From the NCBI GenBank assembly GCA_022560615.1, contig JADFSR010000026.1, positions 1 through 59,214 on the forward strand: 59,214 bases of DNA, read 5' to 3'. The stretch comes from Gemmatimonadota bacterium (GTDB lineage Bacteria; Gemmatimonadota; Gemmatimonadetes; Longimicrobiales; Gaopeijiaceae). A model generated the notes under the pieces. That model saw only the letters and a program-made list of their open reading frames with translations. It ran no database searches and had not been told where the DNA came from. A program made the translations under genes and the position numbers. Below are positions 4,879 through 59,214 of this stretch, piece after piece (position 1 is the first letter of the stretch; every line of letters starts with the position of its first letter).

Positions 4879-6189
4879 CTACGACCCTGAGTTGACGCCC
4901 TCCCGTTCGAATCGCGACATGAGAATCGCATCCTCGTGAGTCCCGTTCCCTGCTTGGACCACCCGGTCTATCACCGCCACCTGCTCGACGAAGATCACCG
5001 CGTGACGAACGACAGGGCCCGGCACGCTCGGCAGCAACATCAGCGGAAGCAGTAGCGCCGAGCCAGCAAAGACGCGACGGATTCGCGAGGCCGGCTCACG
5101 GACGTCACGACCCGAGAGGATCCTCCTGATACGGCCCGACAGCGTGCGACCGTCGCCACCCGCCATCCCGACGACACCTTCGATGGGAGTCCGCGGGGAC
5201 AGCGCCCACTCCGCGACACGCAAGATAGAACGGGCCAGCCCGAGCGGCTGACGAGTGCGGGTCACCGCCCAGTCGTCGCACACGAGCTCGGCCGCATCCA
5301 CGAAGCCCTTGAGCGCCACTCGGTTGAGCGGCTGCAGCCACAGAATGGCGGCGACCAGCCGGAGTCCGGCAAGCCAGATCACGTCTGAGCGGCAAACATG
5401 AGCCACTTCATGCGCCAACACGGCGCGAAGCTCGTCGTGCGGAAGCTCTCGGTCACACCGGTCGGGCAGTGCGATGGTGTCATAGCCGATCACGCACGGC
5501 GCATCCAGCGCCGCGGAGACGCGAAGTGTGGGGCGCACGTCTGTGCCACGCACGACGGCGGCCAATGCCTGGTCCGCGCAGACCGAAGCCGACACTAGCG
5601 ATCGACGCAACTCGGCCAGATCCCGGCGTCGTCGCCAATGGACGAGCAGTCCAAGGCCGGCGCCGGCGCCCCAAAGAAGCATCAAGACATGGTACCAGGC
5701 GATGGTGGGGCTATCTCCGCAGGCGGTCCTGAGGCGGTCGACCCAGCCCGTTCCCGCGCCCGGACCTGAGCGAAGCGCTGCTCGGCACTCGGGCGACGGT
5801 CCAGCGACGTCGCCCCTCATCGCGAACAGCTCTGTGTTCGCGCCCCCGTACAGCCGTAGGACGCGCATGCCTTCAACAGGGGATCGCCCGATATCGAACC
5901 CCTCAGTGCCGAGCTTCGACATCTCGGGGCGCGCGAGCTCGGCTATGCGATCGAATCTTGCGGTCACCTGGATCTCTTGAGGGGCAGACCGCGGCAGTAC
6001 CGCCGCGGTCGCGGTCACGATCCCGGCGAGCGCCGTGAACTTCCAGAGCAGATCCTGAGATACCGGGGCGCGTACACGACCGGTGCGCACCGCCAACCAG
6101 GCGGCCGCGATCAGGACCGAGCTGTGGACCAGGTAGGTGAGAAGCCACTCGGTGCCCAGCGCGGCGACGCCTCCCACGGCCTCAAGCAT
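4879..6189 (-). CDS. M56-family (BlaR1/MecR1-like) membrane sensor peptidase
   Basis: Zinc metallopeptidase of the BlaR1 type, normally embedded in the inner membrane and paired with a BlaI repressor that it inactivates on signal. The 436-residue product has hydrophobic segments at the N-terminus (SSVLIAAAWLAV), around residue 45-60, and near residue 175. The zinc-binding HEVAH motif is in AVLAHEVAHV near residue 260, followed by another hydrophobic segment and a late one at LLLPLMLLPSVPG. There is no recognisable penicillin-binding sensor domain after the last segment, only a short C-terminal tail, so the signal is unknown. Its start overlaps the repressor gene by 8 bases. Confidence 0.88.
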   Translation of the reverse strand: MLEAVGGVAALGTEWLLTYLVHSSVLIAAAWLAVRTGRVRAPVSQDLLWKFTALAGIVTATAAVLPRSAPQEIQVTARFDRIAELARPEMSKLGTEGFDIGRSPVEGMRVLRLYGGANTELFAMRGDVAGPSPECRAALRSGPGAGTGWVDRLRTACGDSPTIAWYHVLMLLWGAGAGLGLLVHWRRRRDLAELRRSLVSASVCADQALAAVVRGTDVRPTLRVSAALDAPCVIGYDTIALPDRCDRELPHDELRAVLAHEVAHVCRSDVIWLAGLRLVAAILWLQPLNRVALKGFVDAAELVCDDWAVTRTRQPLGLARSILRVAEWALSPRTPIEGVVGMAGGDGRTLSGRIRRILSGRDVREPASRIRRVFAGSALLLPLMLLPSVPGPVVRHAVIFVEQVAVIDRVVQAGNGTHEDAILMSRFEREGVNSGS

Positions 6190-6577
6190 CGCGGCCCCCG
6201 TTCTGGCTCACCGCCGCGTCGATCAGCTCTCTGATGCGCTCGAGCTCGTCCGCCTCCACGTCGTCCGCCCGCACCAGATGACTCAGTAGCGCTGTCGCGT
6301 CGCCTCCGAACAGTGTTGCGGTGAGATCACGAACCTTGGAGCGGCGCACTTCCGATTGCGTAACCGTCGCACGATAGACGTACTGGCGCCCTTCCCTTCG
6401 GTGGATCAACACCGACTTCCGCTCGAGCCGGGAGAGCAACGTCGCAACGGTCGTCCTCGCGAGCTTGCGCTCACGGTTGAGGTGCTCCCACACCTCCTGG
6501 GTCGTCGCCTCCCCGCGGTCCCACAGCACGTCGAGGATCGATAGCTGAAGACCGGTAAGATCTACGGTATCATGCAC
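6182..6577 (-). CDS. BlaI/MecI/CopY-family transcriptional repressor
   Basis: Winged-helix repressor of 131 residues, the usual length. The N-terminal half gives the typical LTGLQLSILDVLWDRGEATTQEV helix pattern (quoted in part), then TTVATLLSRLERKSVLIHR as recognition helix and wing; the C-terminal half is the helical dimerisation and cleavage region. It is first in a two-gene unit with the M56 peptidase, overlapping it by 8 bases, the standard arrangement of BlaI-BlaR1-like systems in many phyla. A weak dyad (TAC-7-GTA, 6612-6624) lies 35 bases upstream of its start and might be the operator. Confidence 0.93.
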   Translation of the reverse strand: MHDTVDLTGLQLSILDVLWDRGEATTQEVWEHLNRERKLARTTVATLLSRLERKSVLIHRREGRQYVYRATVTQSEVRRSKVRDLTATLFGGDATALLSHLVRADDVEADELERIRELIDAAVSQNGGRDA

Positions 6578-6611
6578 GGGTCGCTCCGTTTTCCACGTCG
6601 TCGTCGCCCCG

Positions 6612-6624
6612 TACGACGCCTGTA
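6612..6624. promoter_or_regulatory. weak candidate operator for the BlaI-like repressor
   Basis: The minus strand reads TACAGGCGTCGTA, a half-conserved dyad (TAC...GTA) of the kind bound by BlaI-family repressors, 35 bases before the repressor start. The arms are only three bases, so this is a suggestion based mainly on location. Confidence 0.2.
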
Positions 6625-6660
6625 GCCGGTCCTGCGGTTGCCTCTTCCGTGAATCCGCGA

Positions 6661-7152
6661 CTAGGAAATCGGTTGCACGGCTTCGGTCACCGTGAAGCCG
6701 AGCTCTTCGTCAATAGTGTTCTGGGAGTAGTCGATCCAGAAGTCGACCGGGACGCCGAGTTGAGGGTCGTAGGTTGCGCGAATCTCGTATGCGCCCTCAT
6801 CGAACGCATCTCGCAGGACCGCGAAAAGGCCGTCGACCGAGGGAAACCAACCTGCGGCCGCGGCGTCGACCGTCCGGCCGTCGCCATAGAACTGCGAGAC
6901 GACGATCTCTCCGTCGACCGTCACGCGGACCGGCCCCCGAGCGTCCTCCGTGCAGAAACATTGGCGCTGGATCGTGTACACGTATCGGAGGGGGCGCTGG
7001 GACCGCCACAGCTCCTGGGCCTCTTCGAGCTCATCGACTTGGCTCTTCGGGCCCAAGTCGAAACAAGCCGCCGACGCAAGGGTCATTGCCACCGCGAGCG
7101 CGGCCTGCGGGAACCCGGAGACGAAGCGGAGGGTCAAGGCACGCCTGCTCAC
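6661..7152 (-). CDS. DUF6174-like lipoprotein
   Basis: Predicted lipoprotein of 163 residues. The signal sequence ends in a lipobox (LASAAC) near residue 30. The mature part has the pattern YVYTIQRQCFC followed by VRVTVDGEIV and a C-terminal stretch VPVDFWIDYSQN, which resembles the DUF6174 family of small secreted proteins of unknown function. The start ATG overlaps the stop of the upstream, apparently frameshifted, small lipoprotein gene (7149-7420), so the two were probably one operon. No catalytic role can be proposed. Confidence 0.75.
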   Translation of the reverse strand: MSRRALTLRFVSGFPQAALAVAMTLASAACFDLGPKSQVDELEEAQELWRSQRPLRYVYTIQRQCFCTEDARGPVRVTVDGEIVVSQFYGDGRTVDAAAAGWFPSVDGLFAVLRDAFDEGAYEIRATYDPQLGVPVDFWIDYSQNTIDEELGFTVTEAVQPIS

Positions 7153-7420
7153 GAAGCCCTCTCGAATCTGTAGACGTACCCGTCGCAGCAGCCATCGCTC
7201 AAGACCAGCACATCCTGTTTCACGCTGAGCCCCTGGGAATCGAATCCGAAGATCGCTTGTGCGTACTCGATGATCGTCGTTGTACCGTCATCGGACGACC
7301 GGAGTTGGTACGTCGTGGCACTCTCCAGCAATTCCCGCGTGGCCGGTGCGATCGGGGCATGCAACCCATCGGGCCGACCATCGCCAAGATTCCCAGCGTC
7401 TTCCACACGGTGCTGCGCAC
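7149..7420 (-). pseudogene. small lipoprotein gene split by a one-base deletion
   Basis: Two frames together make one plausible lipoprotein. From a GTG at 7420, preceded by a strong ribosome-binding site (GGGGGAGG), the frame encodes a signal ending LAMVGPMGC, a fair lipobox, and then becomes nonsense. The overlapping frame from about 7356 down to 7149 encodes a sensible C-terminal part (ATRELLESATTYQLRSS ... DGCCDGYVYRFERAS). Adding one C to the run of four at 7354-7357 (GGGG on the plus strand) joins them perfectly. The alternative, an 85-residue protein from a GTG at 7406, would lack any export signal. Function unknown; stop overlaps the DUF6174-like gene by four bases. Confidence 0.6.
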
Positions 7421-7559
7421 GCCGCCTCCCCCCCTGATTCCCGTTGCCACCTCATATAACGAATGGAGGCGCACGGAAGTGACATCACGTCGACGTCCGC
7501 CCCCAGGCGCGCCACAGCAGGGCTTTCGCCCTGCGCCACTCCTGGCCCATCTTGCTTGT

Positions 7560-8546
7560 ATGATGAGCAACGCCGATGCCACGCCGCCGGGCTCGCGGCC
7601 GACACCGCGCCCCCTGCCCTGGTCTCCCGTGCGCTTCGTCTCGGCATTCGCCGTAGCGCTGGGGCTCGCCGCGTGTGGTTCGGACGCGCCTCCTGAATCC
7701 CGGTCTTCCGGGCCGTTGCCCCCCGGCCCGCCGGGTACCGACATCTGGCTCGCGACCCTGACCAGCACGCCGGAGGGCATGCCGAGTATCGGCAGGCCCG
7801 AGAACGTCACGGAACGTCCGGGCTACGACAACCAGCCGTACTTCTTGCCCGACGGCTCGGGATTCTGGTTCACGGCGGTCGACGACCACTCGGGTCAGGC
7901 AGACATCTGGCGGTACGACATCGCGTCGGCCGGCGTGGCCCAAGTCACGCAGTCGGCGCCGGAGAGTGAGTACTCAGCGACACCGCTACCGGATGGGTCC
8001 GGAATTTCGGTCATTCGCGTCGAGGCCGACTCGACCCAGCGTCTGTGGCGCTTCGACGCCGACGGACGGAACGCCGCGGTTCTCATTCCGGACGTTGCCG
8101 GAGTCGGCTACCACAAATGGGCTGACGACCGCACGGTTGTGATGTTCGTGCTCGGCGATCCCGCGACGCTGCAGATCTGGAACGAGAACCTGGGCCTGCT
8201 CCCGGTCGCTGCCCACAACGTCGGTCGCTCCATCCAGCCCATCCCGGGCTCGCGTGACGTGAGCTACGTCCAGCGACACGAGGACGGTACTTCGTCCATC
8301 ATGCGACTCCGTCCGGGCACCGGGGAGTCGGAACTGCTCATCGCCACACTGGATGGCGGAGACTTCCACGCGTGGACGCCGGACGGCGTCCTGCTCATGG
8401 GCCACCGTTCTTCGCTGGTGGCTTGGAAACCGGGCTCGGGCTCCGAATGGACGGAAGTCGCGAACTTCGCCGACATCGGAATGACGATTTCACGTCTCGC
8501 AGTGAGTCCCAATGGGGCTCACATTGCGATCGTCGCAGAATTCTAG
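7560..8546 (+). CDS. lipoprotein with TolB/PD40-like beta-propeller
   Basis: Predicted 328-residue lipoprotein. The N-terminus has a signal sequence with lipobox LGLAAC near residue 38. The mature part is built of short repeats with the pattern 'PDGSGFWF', 'LPDGSGISV', 'WTPDGVLL', 'SPNGAHIAI', typical of WD40-like PD40/TolB propeller blades. Such proteins usually bind partners at the outer membrane or periplasm; no enzyme motif is seen. The start is either of two adjacent ATGs (7560 or 7563); the frame remains open far upstream but that part has no gene-like features. It is followed 28 bases later by the LVIVD-repeat protein. Confidence 0.75.
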   Translation: MMSNADATPPGSRPTPRPLPWSPVRFVSAFAVALGLAACGSDAPPESRSSGPLPPGPPGTDIWLATLTSTPEGMPSIGRPENVTERPGYDNQPYFLPDGSGFWFTAVDDHSGQADIWRYDIASAGVAQVTQSAPESEYSATPLPDGSGISVIRVEADSTQRLWRFDADGRNAAVLIPDVAGVGYHKWADDRTVVMFVLGDPATLQIWNENLGLLPVAAHNVGRSIQPIPGSRDVSYVQRHEDGTSSIMRLRPGTGESELLIATLDGGDFHAWTPDGVLLMGHRSSLVAWKPGSGSEWTEVANFADIGMTISRLAVSPNGAHIAIVAEF

Positions 8547-8574
8547 ACCCACGCATACACATCCGGACCGAACC

Positions 8575-10623
8575 ATGCCGCGCAGCCTCGTCACACCCGT
8601 CCTACCTCTCCTGATTGCCTTCGGGACAGTCCCCCTCGCCGCGCAGCAGGACGCGACCACGGTCACCCGGTTGGTAGCGAGCGCCGCGGAACTCACCGTC
8701 GCCAGGGGCGATCAAGTGCCATTCACGGTACAGGCGCTGGACGCGAGCGGTGCAGTCGTACGCGTGGAGCTTCGCATCACAGGCCCGCGGAATTCGATCG
8801 AAATCGGGGACGGCGTCGTGACCGGGATCGTGCCAGGCGAGTATACCATCAACGTCAGCGTGGTGATGCCGGCGGGCTCGACCGCGCGCCCCCCGTCCCT
8901 CAGCGTGCCCATCGTCGTCACGTGGCCCGCCGTGGACCGAGTGCTGATCGAGCCCGCGGCGACGCTCTACGCCGGCACGACCGTTTCCCATTCGGCTCGA
9001 GCGTTCAGCGTGGACGGTTCGGCGCGGCCGGACCCGATCTTCATCTGGACTTCGTCCGATGCATCGATCGCCACGGTCGATGCGTACGGGGGCGTGAGCG
9101 CACACGCTGAGGGGATCGTCACGATCAGCGCCTCGTTCGAGGGCGTGACCAGCTCCCTCATACACGAGGTGGCCACGTTCCCCGGCACCGACATCGAGCT
9201 GCTCGGTGGACCCGACGGTTCAGTGCGAACCGGTGACGTGCTCCGTTTCGAGGCGGTAGTACGTGACGCTACGGGTGCGATCGTCGAGGACGCCCCTGTG
9301 AACTGGTCGCACGCGTACACGGCGACGGACGGGATGCTCGGCATCCCAGCCACTGGCCAAATGAGGCTCGGAGCCTTCGTGGCGGACGTCCCGGGCATTC
9401 ACACCGTGACGGCGGCCGCCGGCCCGCTTTCGGCTCGCTGGTCGTTCGAAGCTAGGCCACGGGATGTCGTGCAGGAGCTCGAGGTCGTCGGTCACGGACT
9501 CGAGGACTGGTACCGAACGACGGACCTATGGGTCTTCGAAGGAGTGGACGGACGCGACTACGCGATCACGGGGTCGAAGGTCTCAGGCGGCTTCGCGTTT
9601 TTCTACGACGTCACCGACCCGGCTGTGATCACCAAGATCGACTCGATCCAGGTCGACGCTCGCACCATCAACGACGTCAAGGCGTCACCCGACGGTCGCT
9701 ACGCGGTGCTCTCCCGCGAAGGCGCGACGAACCGGCGCGACGGGCTCGTCATCCTCGACATGGCCGACCCGAGGCACCCGACCATCGCGGCACTGTACGA
9801 TGACGGCATCACGGGCGGCGTGCACAACATGTTCGCGGAGAACGACTACCTGTACGCGCTCTCGAACGGAGACAAGTACGTCATCATCGATGTCACCGAC
9901 ATCTACAACCCGAAGTACGTCTCGGAGTACAACCATCCGGACAGCCGTCTGCACGACGTGTGGGTCCACAACGGCCTGGCGTATTCCTCGGAGTGGGGTA
10001 CCGGCGTGGTGGTGGTCGATGTCGGGGACGGCCGCTGGGGCGGCTCACCTGAGAATCCCGTCTTCGTGACGTCGTACGCCACGCCCTCCGGACGCACTCA
10101 CGCCACGTTTCCCTACTTCCAGGAGTCGACAGGAAAGACATACCTATTCCTCGGTGACGAGATCATGAACCGCCGGGGGTTGGCTTGGGCCGGCTACCCG
10201 CAATCGTGGGGTTCCTACCAGCGACAGTACGACCCCGAGACGGGCACGGGCGGATTCCCGCTCGTAACACGTGGCTATGTCCAGATTGTGGACTTCACCG
10301 ATCCCGAAAACCCGGAGATGGTGGCTCGCTACGAGGTACCCGAGTTCGGCACGCACAACCTGTGGGTCGAGGACGACAAGCTGTACCAGTCGTATTACGA
10401 AGGCGGCATGCGCGTCGTCGACATCAGCGGCGAGTTGATGGGCAACCTCTATACCCAGGGCCGAGAAATCGCGGTCTTCAAGTCGGCGTCTCCGATAGGC
10501 TACACAGCGAACGCCACCATGGTGTGGGGCACGCAACCGTTCAAAGGCCACGTCTTCTTCAGCGACACCAACTCGGGTCTCTGGAGCGTGAAGCTGTTAC
10601 CCAGACAGCGACCCATCTCGTAG
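8575..10623 (+). CDS. secreted protein with Ig-like (BIG2) domains and LVIVD repeats
   Basis: Exported protein of 682 residues with an N-terminal signal peptide ending in PLAAQQ. The first half (residues about 30-300) contains Ig-like domains with the BIG2 signature pattern (for example IATVDAYGGVSAHAEG). The second half contains LVIVD-type propeller repeats such as DGLVILDMADPRHP, KYVIIDVTDIYNPKYV, GYVQIVDFTDPENPEMV and GGMRVVDISGEL. The combination suggests a cell-surface or periplasmic adhesion or scaffold protein, but no substrate is evident. The ATG at 8575 is chosen because the signal peptide begins there. It probably shares a transcript with the preceding propeller lipoprotein. Confidence 0.82.
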   Translation: MPRSLVTPVLPLLIAFGTVPLAAQQDATTVTRLVASAAELTVARGDQVPFTVQALDASGAVVRVELRITGPRNSIEIGDGVVTGIVPGEYTINVSVVMPAGSTARPPSLSVPIVVTWPAVDRVLIEPAATLYAGTTVSHSARAFSVDGSARPDPIFIWTSSDASIATVDAYGGVSAHAEGIVTISASFEGVTSSLIHEVATFPGTDIELLGGPDGSVRTGDVLRFEAVVRDATGAIVEDAPVNWSHAYTATDGMLGIPATGQMRLGAFVADVPGIHTVTAAAGPLSARWSFEARPRDVVQELEVVGHGLEDWYRTTDLWVFEGVDGRDYAITGSKVSGGFAFFYDVTDPAVITKIDSIQVDARTINDVKASPDGRYAVLSREGATNRRDGLVILDMADPRHPTIAALYDDGITGGVHNMFAENDYLYALSNGDKYVIIDVTDIYNPKYVSEYNHPDSRLHDVWVHNGLAYSSEWGTGVVVVDVGDGRWGGSPENPVFVTSYATPSGRTHATFPYFQESTGKTYLFLGDEIMNRRGLAWAGYPQSWGSYQRQYDPETGTGGFPLVTRGYVQIVDFTDPENPEMVARYEVPEFGTHNLWVEDDKLYQSYYEGGMRVVDISGELMGNLYTQGREIAVFKSASPIGYTANATMVWGTQPFKGHVFFSDTNSGLWSVKLLPRQRPIS

Positions 10624-53578: not shown

Positions 53579-53850
53579 CTAGTGTATATGCCGGATGCCC
53601 TTCCCCACCAGCCAATAGTTCACAGGCCAAGCCGCGATGAAGCCGGCCAAGAGGGCCAGACCCATGCCCAGCCAGAAGATGGGGCTGCTCAATCCTGCGC
53701 CCATCACTCCGGGCGTATAGAGCTCCACCAGCACTTCGGTCGCCTCCATCACGGCGATGCTCAGCCCCTCCGCAGGGAGCTTGCGACCCGCCTGGGCAAC
53801 GTTGACCTTCGCATATCTGAAAACGCAGGAGGGACGTCCATGCTCGACAC
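53579..53850 (-). pseudogene. C-terminal fragment of a DUF4396 membrane protein
   Basis: The frame encodes RYAKVNVAQAGRKLPAEGLS, then two membrane segments ending FWLGMGLALLAGFIAAWPVNYWLVGKG (in part) and IRHIH, the typical ending of DUF4396 proteins. The N-terminal half of that family is missing. The frame is cut off at its upstream side by the start of the divergent outer-membrane barrel gene at 53840, so it may mark a rearrangement junction. Confidence 0.6.
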
Positions 53851-56446
53851 CTCTCGCATGAGTGCAGATGGGAAGCGACGCGCCGTGCCACCACGGGCGG
53901 CTGGGACGGTACGGACACTGCTTGCGGTCATCGGCCTAGTCACGTGCTTCGCACACTCGTTGCTTGCACAGGCCGCCGACCATGGAGAAGTGGTGGCCGC
54001 AGGCGAGCGCTATCGCGCCGGGCCCCTCCATCGGTGGATCCTGGGTCGGCACTACCGCGATGTGTGGACCCAGATCATCCAGGTGGAGCTGCTCGACCTG
54101 TCGTCGTTCGCCGGGGGACTCGAGCCACTTCGGACGGGGGGAGGGCTACAGACGAGATCCTTGAGGTTCATGGGCGCGGACGGCCGGGAGTACAGCTTCC
54201 GCTCCGTCGACAAGGATCCCTCGGCCGTGCTCGACCCACTTCTTCGTGGGACGGTCGTCAACGAGCTCGTTCAGGACGGGATCAGCGCGGCCCACCCCTA
54301 TGGCGCGCTGGTCGCTGCGCCACTCCTGGAAGCGGCGGGAGTCCTGCACGTGGAGCCCCAGCTCAGGCTCATGCCGGACGATCCTGCGCTCGGAGAGTTC
54401 AGGGAGGAGTTCGCCGGCGTTCTGGGACTCATCGAGGAACGTCCCGACGAGAATCAGGGTGACCGCACATCGTTTGCAGGGACTGCCCGCGTGATCGCCA
54501 GTGAGACGTTGACCGAGCGCCTCGATCGGGGCCCCAGTGACCTGGTCGACAGCGGAGCGTTTCTCACTGCTCGACTCGTCGATGTCTTTCTCGGCGACTG
54601 GGATAGGCACCGGGGACAGTGGCGGTGGGCGACCTACAGCGAGGCGGAGCCCAGGACATGGCTACCCGTGCCGACCGATCGCGACCAGGCGTTCTCCAAG
54701 TTCGACGGCGCTGCGACTCGAATCGTGAGCTTGTACATGCCGCAGTTCGTTCGCTTCGAGGAAAGCTACCCGAACATCACGCGATTGCACTGGAACGCGC
54801 GGGCCTTGGACCGGTGGTTCTTGTCCGGGCTCGAGCGACAGGTGTGGGACTCAGTGGGGACCGCACTGCAGGCGCGACTCACGGACGAGGTGATCGAGGA
54901 AGCCGTGCGACAGCTGCCGCCCGAGATCCACGCGCTCGGCGGTGAGGAACTCGCCCGCACGCTGCGAGTGAGGAGGGACCTGCTCAATGAGGCGTGGGAC
55001 GAGTTCTACCGACTGCTCGCCGACAAGGTCGACATCCACGCCACCAACGCCGACGAAGTAGTCGTGGTCGATCGCTCGGAGTCGGGTCGCGTCGGAGTGA
55101 CGATCACCGCGCCCGATCATCTGGAAGCAGCGTATTTTCAGCGTCGCTTCGACGCCACGGAAACGGACGAGATCAGGATCTACTTAGGGGGCGGCGATGA
55201 CCAGGTAGTGGTGCGGGGAGGCGCCTGGTCGAATATCACGATCCGGATCATCGGCGGGGCAGGAGACGACCGCTATGAATTCGGGTCGGATGGACAGCGA
55301 GTGCGACTCTACGATCACGAGGGCGTCAACCAGGTATCGGGCAGCGGATCTCAGCCGATCGACGACAAGGAGTTCGACGAGTGGGTCTGGACGGAAGAGG
55401 ACCGAGATCAGCCCCGCGATTGGGGCAGCAGTACGCTGCCGATCTTCTGGTCGTTGTACTCGTCCGATCTCGGACTCTTCCTGGGGGGTGGAGCCCACTT
55501 CGAGCGCTACGGCTTCCGGAAGCCACCGTACGCATCGGCGTTCGACGTCCGAGGCGGGTACACGCCAACCCTCCGTAAAGGACGGGTCGAGATCGAGGGA
55601 CGCCTGAACCAAGAGAACTCCCGCCTCTTCTGGACGTTGGGGGGCCGTATCTCACGGCTGGACGTCCTCCACTATTTCGGGCTTGGTAACACGACGCCCA
55701 CCGGTGCACAGTCGTTCCATAAGGTCGACCAGACAGCAGCCTCTTTCGCGCTCGGGCTCGGGGTCTCGCCGAGCTCCCGGTTCGTGTTGTCGGGTGGCCT
55801 GGCGCTCGAGCGGTTCAGCACAGGCGAGAACACCGGGCGCTTCTACAATACTTTGGACTCGATCTACGGGAACGGCCAGTTCATCCAGCTCGGTGCCACG
55901 GCTAGCCTCGTCATAGACCCGTTCATCGATTCCGAGACCACCGGCAACCGTATCCGCGTCTCGCTCATCGGCACGGCCTTCCCGGACCTGCTCGACGTCG
56001 AGCGGACGTTCGGCAGGGCCGGCGCCGAGGTATCCACTCTGTTGGCGCCCTCTCTCGACCCCTGGATTTCGCTCGCTCTGCGGGCGGGTGGTGAGCAGGT
56101 CTGGGGTCGATTCCCGTGGTATGAAGCAGCCTTCCTCGGGGGTAATTCGACGATCCGCGGATGGGCCGACCAGCGCTTCGCCGGAGATGCCGCCGCATTC
56201 GCCAGCGCCGAGCTCCGGCTCCGGTTCTGGCGTCCGCAGGTCCTGGTGCCCGTCGGGACAGGGGTGTTCGGCTTTGCCGACGCGGGACGCGTGTCCCTTG
56301 CTGGGTCCTCACCCGGAGGATGGCATACCAGCCTTGGCGGAGGTCTCTGGTTTCAACCAGTCCGTCAGCCCTACATCGTTCGCGCGGGAATCGGAGTCAG
56401 TGACGAATCCACGAAGTTCTTCGTCATTCTCGGGCTGCCGTACTAG
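53840..56446 (+). CDS. outer-membrane beta-barrel protein (Omp85/D15-like) with kinase-like motif
   Basis: Exported 868-residue protein; the ATG at 53840 follows AGGAGG and the signal ends AHSLLAQA. Residues about 230-300 carry LVDVFLGDWDRHRGQWRW and then PTDRDQAFSKFDG, resembling the GNxDRHxxN and DxG motifs of FAM20/HipA-type kinases. From about 530 the sequence is aromatic-rich strands (GLFLGGGAHFERYGFRKPPY and later AELRLRFWRPQVLVP, GFADAGRVSLAG, PYIVRAGIGV) typical of surface-antigen/Omp85-type barrels. It is therefore a soluble domain fused to a barrel. No POTRA repeats are recognised. Confidence 0.7.
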   Translation: MLDTSRMSADGKRRAVPPRAAGTVRTLLAVIGLVTCFAHSLLAQAADHGEVVAAGERYRAGPLHRWILGRHYRDVWTQIIQVELLDLSSFAGGLEPLRTGGGLQTRSLRFMGADGREYSFRSVDKDPSAVLDPLLRGTVVNELVQDGISAAHPYGALVAAPLLEAAGVLHVEPQLRLMPDDPALGEFREEFAGVLGLIEERPDENQGDRTSFAGTARVIASETLTERLDRGPSDLVDSGAFLTARLVDVFLGDWDRHRGQWRWATYSEAEPRTWLPVPTDRDQAFSKFDGAATRIVSLYMPQFVRFEESYPNITRLHWNARALDRWFLSGLERQVWDSVGTALQARLTDEVIEEAVRQLPPEIHALGGEELARTLRVRRDLLNEAWDEFYRLLADKVDIHATNADEVVVVDRSESGRVGVTITAPDHLEAAYFQRRFDATETDEIRIYLGGGDDQVVVRGGAWSNITIRIIGGAGDDRYEFGSDGQRVRLYDHEGVNQVSGSGSQPIDDKEFDEWVWTEEDRDQPRDWGSSTLPIFWSLYSSDLGLFLGGGAHFERYGFRKPPYASAFDVRGGYTPTLRKGRVEIEGRLNQENSRLFWTLGGRISRLDVLHYFGLGNTTPTGAQSFHKVDQTAASFALGLGVSPSSRFVLSGGLALERFSTGENTGRFYNTLDSIYGNGQFIQLGATASLVIDPFIDSETTGNRIRVSLIGTAFPDLLDVERTFGRAGAEVSTLLAPSLDPWISLALRAGGEQVWGRFPWYEAAFLGGNSTIRGWADQRFAGDAAAFASAELRLRFWRPQVLVPVGTGVFGFADAGRVSLAGSSPGGWHTSLGGGLWFQPVRQPYIVRAGIGVSDESTKFFVILGLPY

Positions 56447-57275: not shown

Positions 57276-57765
57276 GGCCCACTACCGCTGATCGCCGGCG
57301 GCATCGGGATCACACCGATCCTGGCCATGCTGAGGACGCTGGTCGCGAGCGGCGCGGACACGGAGGTGCACTATGCAGCCGCCGCTCCCGAACGCATGGC
57401 GTACAGAGACGACGTGGTCCAGCTCGCGGGAGATCACGCCCTGTGTTACACGGGCGGCCGGTCTTCCGAGACGGGCATGGTCTGCGGCGTGTGCTCGGGC
57501 GATAGCCCGATTCGCGTGGAGGTCGCCCGATCCGGAATGACCACCGACGTGCCGGCGGACACCACGATTCTCGACGCGATGCTCGAGGCGGGCGTGTGGA
57601 CATCGTACGAGTGCCGGCGAGGCGAGTGCGGGTCCTGCACGGCCACCGTACGTCGAGGGCGAGCCGGACCACAGGGACGTGTGCCTGACCGCGGCCGACC
57701 GCGCGCGATTCATGTGCCCCCGCGTTTCGAGAGCGAAGGGCGAACGCCTGGTGCTCGATCTCTGA
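57276..57765 (+). pseudogene. remnant of a PDR/VanB-type dioxygenase reductase
   Basis: The NAD-binding end and the 2Fe-2S domain of an oxygenase reductase are present: LPLIAGGIGITPILAMLRTL, HYAAAAPERMAY, CYTGGRSSETG, and the cluster ligands YECRRGECGSC. After this the frame changes: removing one C at 57651 gives TVVEGEPDHRDVCLTAADRA and an ending GERLVLDL, the normal family end with the last cysteine. The flavin-binding N-terminal domain is missing. It lies 72 bases upstream of the disulfide-reductase gene. Confidence 0.65.
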
Positions 57766-57837
57766 CGGCGGCGCGAGTTGACAGCACCCGTGGGCGACAG
57801 AATTCTTGACCAGTCTCCAGCAGAAAAGGAGCGGGAC

Positions 57838-59214
57838 ATGCCAGCGTACGACTACGACGTCCTGGTCGTGGGGGCCGGACAGGGTGGACTTCCGGCTGCC
57901 CACATGGCGGCTAACCTGGGAGCCAAGGTCGCATTGATCGAGGAGCACGAGGTCGGCGGCACCTGAGTCAACGAAGGGTGCGTACCCACCAAGGCCCTAC
58001 TCCGTTCGGCCGAGGTCATGCACCTGGTTGCCCGGCGGGCAGCTGAATTCGGAGTCGAGGTCGAGGGCCAAGTTCGCTTCCGCTTGGATCAGGCCGTTGC
58101 CCGCAAGGACTCGATCGTCAAAGGCATCCACAAGTCGATCTACGGCGCCCTCGACCGGCGAAAGGAAGCGATTGACTTCCTGCGAGGGGAAGCTCGTTTC
58201 CTGAACGAGCATGAGATCGAAACGGGAGATGGCCGCTTGAGCTTCGAGAAGGCCATCGTGGCCACCGGGGCGCGTCGAGTCGTACCGCCCATTCCCGGCC
58301 TCGAGGACGTCGAGTTTCTCACCAACCGAACCGCCCTCGAGTTGAATGATCTGCCCTCCAGCATGATCATCGTGGGCGGCGGCTATGTCGGCATCGAGTT
58401 CGCCCAGATGTACGGTCGTTTCGGCACTCGAGTGACTCTCCTCGGCCGTAACAGCCGGCTGGCGCCCACGGAGGATCCGGATCTGGCGCAGCTCCTGGCT
58501 GGGTATCTTCGAGAAGAGGACATCCAAGTGTATACGAATGCTCCCGTCACCTCGCTGCGCAAAGATGGGCATGAGTCGGTGGCCTCGGCTATGGTAGATG
58601 GAGAAGAGAAGGAGTTTCGCGCTGAGGTCGTGCTGCTGGCGGCCGGTCGCGTCGGCAACACCGACCGACTCGACCTAGAGGCGGCAGGAGTAGCGACCCT
58701 GGCGAAGGGCTTCGTCCAGGTAGATGATCGGCTGACCACCAGCCAGCCCAACATCTCTGCCATCGGAGACGTGAAGGGTGGGTGGATGTTTACCCACGTG
58801 GCGACCTACGACGGACCCATCGCCGCTCTCAATGCAGTAAAGGGGGCAGGGCGCAGCGTCGACTATCGGGTGGTGCCACGCGTCATCTTCAGCGATCCGG
58901 CGCTCGCCGCCGTAGGTCTGACGGAGACCGAGGCGAGCGAGCAGGGCTACGACGTGGCGGTGGGGAGCGTCCCCGTCCAGGGTGCCAGGTCCCTTGCGAT
59001 CGGTGATGGCCGCGGCCGGCTCAAGGCCGTGGTGAATCGAGCCGATGGCGAAATTCTCGGATTTCACATCCTGGCCCCTCACGGGGACGACCTGCTCCAC
59101 GAGGTCGTGGCGGCCATGCACGACCACGGCCGCATCGAGCGCATCGGGAAGTCCGTCCACGCCCATCCAACGTTGAGCGAGATGGTGAAGGCAGCTGCCA
59201 AGGCAGCGAACTGA
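57838..59214 (+). CDS. class I pyridine-nucleotide disulfide oxidoreductase with in-frame TGA at the first redox cysteine (possible selenoprotein)
   Basis: FAD/NAD(P)-dependent enzyme of the dihydrolipoamide dehydrogenase/mercuric reductase class, 458 residues. From ATG 57838 (AAGGAG upstream) it opens DVLVVGAGQGGLPAA, then EEHEVGGT-TGA-VNEGCVPTK. Relatives have GGTCxNxGCxPTK, so the TGA at 57964-57966 replaces Cys43 of the redox pair with Cys48. All else is intact: NAD-site IIVGGGYVGIEFAQMYGRFG (in part), AIGDVKGGWMFTHVA, and the C-terminal catalytic HAHPTLSEM ending at 59214. An annotation starting at 58018 would lose the FAD site and this motif. Selenocysteine, nonsense mutation and base error all remain possible. 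Confidence 0.8.
57976..57987 (+). promoter_or_regulatory. short hairpin just after the in-frame TGA
   Basis: GGGT-GCGT-ACCC can form a four-base stem with a four-base loop starting 13 bases after the TGA. An alternative four-base stem GGTG/CACC has a six-base loop. Bacterial SECIS hairpins usually place the loop about 16-37 bases downstream, so this is a weak candidate. Confidence 0.2.

Follow-up and report, generated by a model that had tools for sequence, protein, structure and literature searches.

An Omp85-type barrel protein of Gemmatimonadota and other phyla with a predicted kinase-fold domain

Results

Contig JADFSR010000026.1 of a Gemmatimonadota bacterium (GCA_022560615.1) was analysed over 59,214 nucleotides; this whole stretch is called the window, and all positions follow its numbering. 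A single open frame at 53840-56446 on the forward (+) strand encodes 868 amino acids (aa) plus stop, and the open frame together with a full-length model (predicted local distance difference test (pLDDT) 86.0, predicted template modelling score (pTM) 0.84) gives the order signal-peptide-like start, kinase-fold domain, beta-rich linker and Omp85-type barrel. Residue numbers refer to this protein and are counted from position 53840. Our data suggest that it is an outer-membrane-anchored, periplasm-facing atypical kinase paired with a phosphoesterase, a reading that, with its predicted activity, we place slightly on the probable side of even. Structure prediction and sequence comparison support the proposed fold, the motif conservation, the domain order and the gene pairing, and we infer the periplasmic side, catalysis and a functional pairing with the phosphoesterase.

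The N-terminal domain resembles atypical kinases

Since the full-length fold search was filled by barrel matches, the conserved N-terminal domain, residues 50-415 as aligned over 141 rows (53987..55084, +), was modelled alone, with a pLDDT of 95.0 and a pTM of 0.93. Foldseek matched this model to CtkA (3akk, E 2.6e-5), CotH (1.3e-4), HipA (1.6e-4) and DrFam20C1 (1.4e-3). VIA-align, which re-ranks Foldseek's own matches so that the two results are not independent, placed CotH 5jd9 first (Z 15.0, root-mean-square deviation (rmsd) 4.0, 250 residues), with PI4K-II at Z 14.8, CtkA at 14.4, HipA at 11.5 and DrFam20C1 5yh0 at 11.0; the 50 VIA-align rows listed were kinase-superfamily entries throughout (Z 10.6-15.0). 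The range aligned with CotH 5jd9 (model residues 32-342), together with the Foldseek matches, delimits a kinase-fold core at residues about 81-391 (54080..55012, +). The kinase-like core of the original prediction was therefore recovered in the model, and of its proposed likeness to FAM20 and HipA the kinase fold stood, whereas the nearest structures were CotH, PI4K-II and CtkA rather than FAM20C.

Sequence profiles gave fainter signals. The best match of the family profile in the PDB was CtkA (E 0.29), aligned over the DRH stretch, and a PDB search with the window protein sequence returned one match at E 2.2, nothing meaningful. HHalign aligned the domain with the HipA profile at P 3.1e-4 (probability 39.6) and with a CotH profile restricted to Pfam-matched regions at P 0.022 (probability 2.2), while eight unrelated neighbour profiles used as controls gave P 0.25-0.78. 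Neither HHalign against an earlier CotH alignment extending past the CotH domain nor querying the PDB with the sequence of a single CotH relative yielded a match. No Pfam family matched the kinase-fold domain of the window protein; in a Pfam scan of 35 family members the top match overall was CotH (E 0.0017, one member), and no HipA_C (PF07804) or Fam20C Pfam match appeared in the window protein or the scanned relatives. PF00454 (PI3/PI4 kinase) was found in 0/121 genomes, and the profile comparisons cover HipA and CotH. The profile matches, weak alone, agree in direction with the fold, and in our judgement the domain almost certainly has a kinase fold.

Active-site-like motifs are conserved across phyla

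Conservation was assessed over the 141 aligned domain rows, which come from several phyla and include the window row. R121, K125, D253, D280 and D282 were identical in all 141 rows, and this invariance across phyla points to strong constraint on the active-site motifs. In the N-lobe, a conserved signature runs from GGGLQT (100-105) to FRSVDK (120-125) at 54137..54214 (+), with Q104 kept in 133/141 rows. The GNxDRHxxN-like motif placed near residue 250 by the original prediction is present as the catalytic-loop-like LGDWDRHRGQWRW at residues 251-263 (54590..54628, +). It is not attributed to chance because it is conserved over the 141 rows; a six-frame search of the 59 kb window finds the strict pattern [GA][DN]xDRHxx[NQ] once. 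Position 255 is Asp in 130 rows and Gly in 11, position 256 Arg in 133 and Lys in 8, position 257 His in 133, Gly in 6 and Ser in 2, and position 260 Gln in 128 and Asn in 13; DxDRH, like the DRD motif described next, is thus conserved across phyla with exceptions (Gly at 255 in 11/141, Gly or Ser at 257 in 8/141). DRDQAFSKFDG, proposed earlier to stand where a metal-binding Asp would be, occupies residues 280-290 (54677..54709, +) as a putative metal-binding motif, with D280 and D282 in 141/141 rows and G290 in 140/141. The Gly-255 rows are L120, L124, L125, L130, L133, L135, L145, L154, L156, L158 and L160; 9 of these 11 are Hymenobacter and 10 also have Asn at 260. On the domain tree, the label at position 255 requires 2 changes and that at position 257 requires 4.

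When aligned with HipA by HHalign, D255 falls opposite the Asp and Q260 opposite the Asn of N-x-D-x-H, two residues whose functional roles in HipA we take as presumed. In the low-scoring alignment with CotH, the catalytic loops line up and D280 falls opposite the WD motif. R121, which lies within strand 117-122, and K125, just past it, are candidates for the nucleotide-binding beta-3 lysine place, and an N-lobe-only HHalign register was not confident.

The main rival to an active kinase is a pseudokinase or sensor that keeps the fold and binds nucleotide, phosphate or polyphosphate without transfer, regulating the linked phosphoesterase or the barrel. Gly at 255 in 11 of the 141 rows, the predominance of Gln at position 260 and the uncertain place of the beta-3 lysine would all fit such a protein, as would an ATP-poor compartment and the phosphoesterase partner described below. 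Against it stand the unvarying R121, K125, D253, D280 and D282 in 141 rows from several phyla, a sign of strong constraint on these motifs, and we give the pseudokinase about the weight of a serious minority view. For the active kinase, phosphate transfer by the domain is predicted as somewhat probable.

An Omp85-type barrel and the probable periplasmic side of the kinase-fold domain

The Omp85/D15-type barrel expected downstream was found at residues 530-868 (55427..56443, +), ending in Tyr. This part of the model matched TamA 8us3 with Z 25.0 and rmsd 3.1 over 290 residues, and BamA was also matched. NCBIfam Omp85_fam hit residues 736-865 of the window protein at E 2.6e-18, under the curated cut-off of that model, and Pfam Omp85 (E 0.00079) and Pfam ShlB were likewise under cut-off; in 6 of 9 relatives scanned, Pfam Omp85 was above it. 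The C-terminal residue is F or Y in 33/37 full-length rows. As modelled, the window protein has a C-terminal Omp85-type barrel.

At the other end, residues 1-44 (53840..53971, +) form a signal-peptide-like N-terminus, judged from hydropathy, with a basic stretch, a hydrophobic core at about 25-42 (mean hydropathy 2.13 over residues 28-42) and A-Q-A ahead of residue 45, the cleavage site being placed by eye. Translation may in fact begin at the ATG at 53858 (residue 7). Between the kinase-fold domain and the barrel, DSSP on the model assigns a beta-rich linker to residues 396-501 (55025..55342, +). Other Omp85 proteins carry POTRA domains at this position; Pfam found no POTRA match in the window protein, and no fold search aimed at POTRA was made. 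Pfam likewise found no patatin match in it. The linker contains two repeats, GGGDD (450) and GGAGDD (472), whose RTX likeness was judged by eye. These GG(A)GDD repeats might be calcium-binding, and the family consensus has GGDD and GGGGDD stretches of a similar kind.

The topology of Omp85 proteins and the analogy to PlpD make it very probable that the kinase-fold domain faces the periplasm. In PlpD, a patatin-Omp85 protein of type Vd, the enzyme domain lies N-terminal to a 16-strand Omp85 barrel and is periplasmic (PMC11116518); PlpD differs in having a patatin phospholipase and one POTRA domain in place of a kinase fold and an RTX-like beta-rich linker. The layout of an enzyme domain plus an Omp85 barrel was, according to the same paper, first called type Vd secretion, which would suit a type V-like passenger that crosses the outer membrane and acts at the cell surface or on neighbours. 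However, the enzyme domain of the prototype PlpD is described there as exclusively periplasmic, and the domain of the window protein is compactly folded in the model, so that we consider such a passenger improbable.

The domain family is patchy and often accompanied by a phosphoesterase

Among 59 genomes searched, 30 had a match, including the window's own genome with two copies. The domain profile matched 43/150 sampled genomes of the window's phylum and 54/148 of the phylum of a Larkinella genome. The named-genome set consisted of the best-scoring 80 of at least 586 confirmed loci, and these 80 fell into Gemmatimonadota, Bacteroidota, Ignavibacteriota, Chlorobiota, Rhodothermota, Calditrichota, Acidobacteriota and Myxococcota, with one unplaced. 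In a tree of 141 domains, rows of the same phylum mostly grouped together, with 21 label changes compared with 66.8 after shuffling. The rows nearest to the window were those of Gemmatimonadota (L081, L002, L056, L003 and L062), and no well-supported small group in this tree contained the window.

Fused relatives of about 1240 aa combine a Metallophos domain (PF00149) with the kinase-fold domain and with the Omp85 barrel in one chain. PF00149 and Omp85 were both above the Pfam cut-off in the same chain of L103 and L110, and PF00149 was below it in L118. Only domains sharing one frame were counted as fused; the long frames of L033-L035 and L038 were rejected as fusions because their phosphoesterase is encoded in a different frame that overlaps. 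Domain-only copies without an Omp85 match were found at L106:1703-3337 and L144:6776-8434. Frames too short for a barrel occur at L036:4613-5902, L319:4364-5650, L320:4942-6219, L321:4321-5607 and L323:7129-12148, several with an N-terminal hydrophobic stretch, as in the 426-430 aa domain-only frames of L036 and L319-L321; L323 has three neighbouring domain copies, two with a lipobox-like cysteine (by eye). A 299-aa frame at L029:1210-2106, a place also covered by L043, runs directly from the start of the domain into the end of the barrel, its middle seemingly missing; the L029 genome is a one-contig genome.

Of the 54 matching genomes in the Larkinella phylum, 40 supplied a second, hand-picked set of 40 places; it omits the other 14, several with multiple or weak matches, and is less biased than the best 80 named loci. 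The sets partly overlap (L084/L290 and L099/L297 are the same places), and L319-L323, among which L322 has PPK1 nearby, stand outside the second-set counts. Flanks were often shorter than 8 kilobases (kb), so that absences are to be taken as lower bounds. A calcineurin-like phosphoesterase is fused in front of the domain in 43/51 Bacteroidota loci of the best 80 and in 27/40 places of the second set. As a separate gene it is adjacent upstream on the same strand in 16/80 Gemmatimonadota places, and adjacent upstream in 4/11 Gemmatimonadota loci of the best 80. In L087, a single stop codon lies between a separate phosphoesterase gene (5741-6910, PF00149) and the kinase-barrel frame that follows it (6914-9535).

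These arrangements bear on the view that the protein is an outer-membrane protein assembly or lipid-transport factor whose kinase fold is a mere scaffold replacing POTRA domains. In its favour, TamA and BamA are the nearest structures to the barrel, and biogenesis roles have been suggested for related Omp85 groups (PMC4104836). A scaffold, however, would need neither five invariant charged motif residues nor a phosphoesterase partner, and barrel-less domain-only copies exist (L106, L144, L036, L319-L321); we lend this view little credence.

PPK1 lies near the gene in some phyla

The gene for polyphosphate kinase 1 (PPK1) was found no more than 8 kb from the domain in 48 of 160 places, made up of 80 Gemmatimonadota genome places (26/80) and the best 80 named loci, among which it was near 4/11 Gemmatimonadota, 7/11 Ignavibacteriota, 11/51 Bacteroidota and 0/7 other loci. 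By our own estimate (one or two PPK1 per about 4.5 megabases), chance would give roughly one, and the loci are interrelated. Within 1.5 kb flanks, PPK1 accompanied 7/48 and the phosphoesterase 12/48 loci of this family, compared with 0/55 and 0/55 of CotH/HipA control loci, which are shorter on average (3650 versus 4582 bases) and come partly from other genomes. The PPK1 link is strong in Gemmatimonadota and Ignavibacteriota and weak in Bacteroidota; it is called weak there because 11/51 dropped to 2/40 in the second set. The window's own genome has two PPK1 genes, and a paralogue of the window protein, 39% identical (L031:3126-8116, contig C24), is convergent to and abuts PPK1.

Other neighbours recur as well. 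The second set has an HD-PycTM protein in 23/40 places, an adenylate-cyclase-type protein in 15/40 and an SdiA-regulated-type protein in 12/40, and in Bacteroidota and Ignavibacteriota, HD + PycTM (Pycsar effector) and Fer2 + adenylate-cyclase proteins are recurrent, for example in L087, L129 and L137. In the window, the contig ends 2.8 kb beyond the gene. This interval holds a Fer2 (2Fe-2S ferredoxin-like) stretch at 57327-57809, in a short frame that seemingly breaks off, followed by a pyridine nucleotide-disulphide oxidoreductase at 58018-59214.

Discussion

In the mechanism that we propose, the protein would be exported through Sec and its C-terminal Omp85-type barrel inserted in the outer membrane, leaving the kinase-fold domain to hang into the periplasm on the beta-rich linker, much as the PlpD enzyme domain does. 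The domain would use D280/D282 together with the D253-x-D255-R-H loop to bind a phosphoryl donor and metal, and would phosphorylate an envelope target. The calcineurin-like phosphoesterase of relatives, fused or encoded by the preceding gene, would undo this phosphorylation or dispose of phosphate products. The donor may be ATP or a different nucleotide, or else polyphosphate supplied by the linked PPK1 pathway. The PPK1 gene link is a possible answer to the scarcity of ATP at the outer membrane and, as speculation, the gene neighbourhood allows polyphosphate as the donor. A bolder proposal is that the family forms a widespread kinase-phosphatase pair at the periplasmic face, in which phosphate from polyphosphate or a PPK1/exopolyphosphatase product, not ATP, is placed on an envelope target and removed by the calcineurin-like domain; we think this unlikely.

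Several observations weigh against a periplasmic kinase. The structural matches are distant (Foldseek top template modelling (TM)-scores 0.42/0.50, 12% identity), and the HHalign probabilities for CotH (2.2) and HipA (39.6) are low. Gly replaces the presumed catalytic Asp, D255, in 11/141 rows, position 260 is Gln, not Asn, in 128/141, and the beta-3 lysine position could be taken by either R121 or K125. The probable periplasmic side comes from homology alone, and to our knowledge the periplasm does not normally contain ATP. The distribution is patchy, given that the remaining sampled genomes (107/150 and 94/148) had no match. PPK1 is near only 2/40 places of the second, less biased set, and the window's contig carries neither PPK1 nor a phosphoesterase of the partner kind.

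Among characterized proteins, the closest in structure is CotH (PF08757), a Ser/Thr kinase of the spore coat and the top VIA-align match, whose catalytic-loop and WD-type motifs align with those of the window domain in a low-scoring HHalign comparison, although Pfam CotH has no match to this domain. We know of no outer-membrane barrel in CotH. According to PMC7821199, the fold of CotH is itself protein-kinase-like but atypical, with a distant relationship to Fam20C, and its D228Q and D251A variants are inactive. From the CtkA/HipA family (PF07804), CtkA was both the best Foldseek and the best PDB sequence match, whereas the window protein has no HipA_C Pfam match. HipA and CtkA are soluble proteins. 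FAM20C and PI4K-II belong to the same fold branch (DrFam20C1 Z 11.0, PI4K-II Z 14.8), with no Pfam match to either; both are eukaryotic enzymes that work in the secretory pathway and at membranes. A survey of Legionella adds new bacterial families near the FAM20/CotH group (PMC9758233), so that this branch is known to hold undescribed members. In titles and abstract starts of the literature, a body from which subscription papers mostly fell outside, no kinase fold joined to an Omp85 barrel was found.

The 'Metallo' Omp85 subfamily of PMC4104836 has PF00149 and a barrel in one chain, as do the fused relatives, unlike the window protein, in which Pfam finds no PF00149. Heinz and Lithgow (2014) call PF00149 a metalloprotease domain in that paper, and Pfam describes it as a calcineurin-like phosphoesterase; the main text of PMC4104836 has no word starting with kinase, phosphatase or phosphoesterase. 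The barrels of their 'noNterm' Omp85 group are said there to resemble those of the 'Metallo' group, and 'noNterm' proteins may be kinase-fold-barrel proteins minus the phosphoesterase.

If the proteins are active, they would make up a large kinase family, as yet unannotated, at the outer-membrane side of the cell envelope, and the 'Metallo' Omp85 group, which the 2014 survey presented as metalloproteases, would receive a different biochemical reading. This raises the questions of what the phosphate donor is, which target is phosphorylated and why the phosphoesterase is fused. Were the polyphosphate-fed pair true, it would mean reversible phosphorylation in a compartment without ATP.

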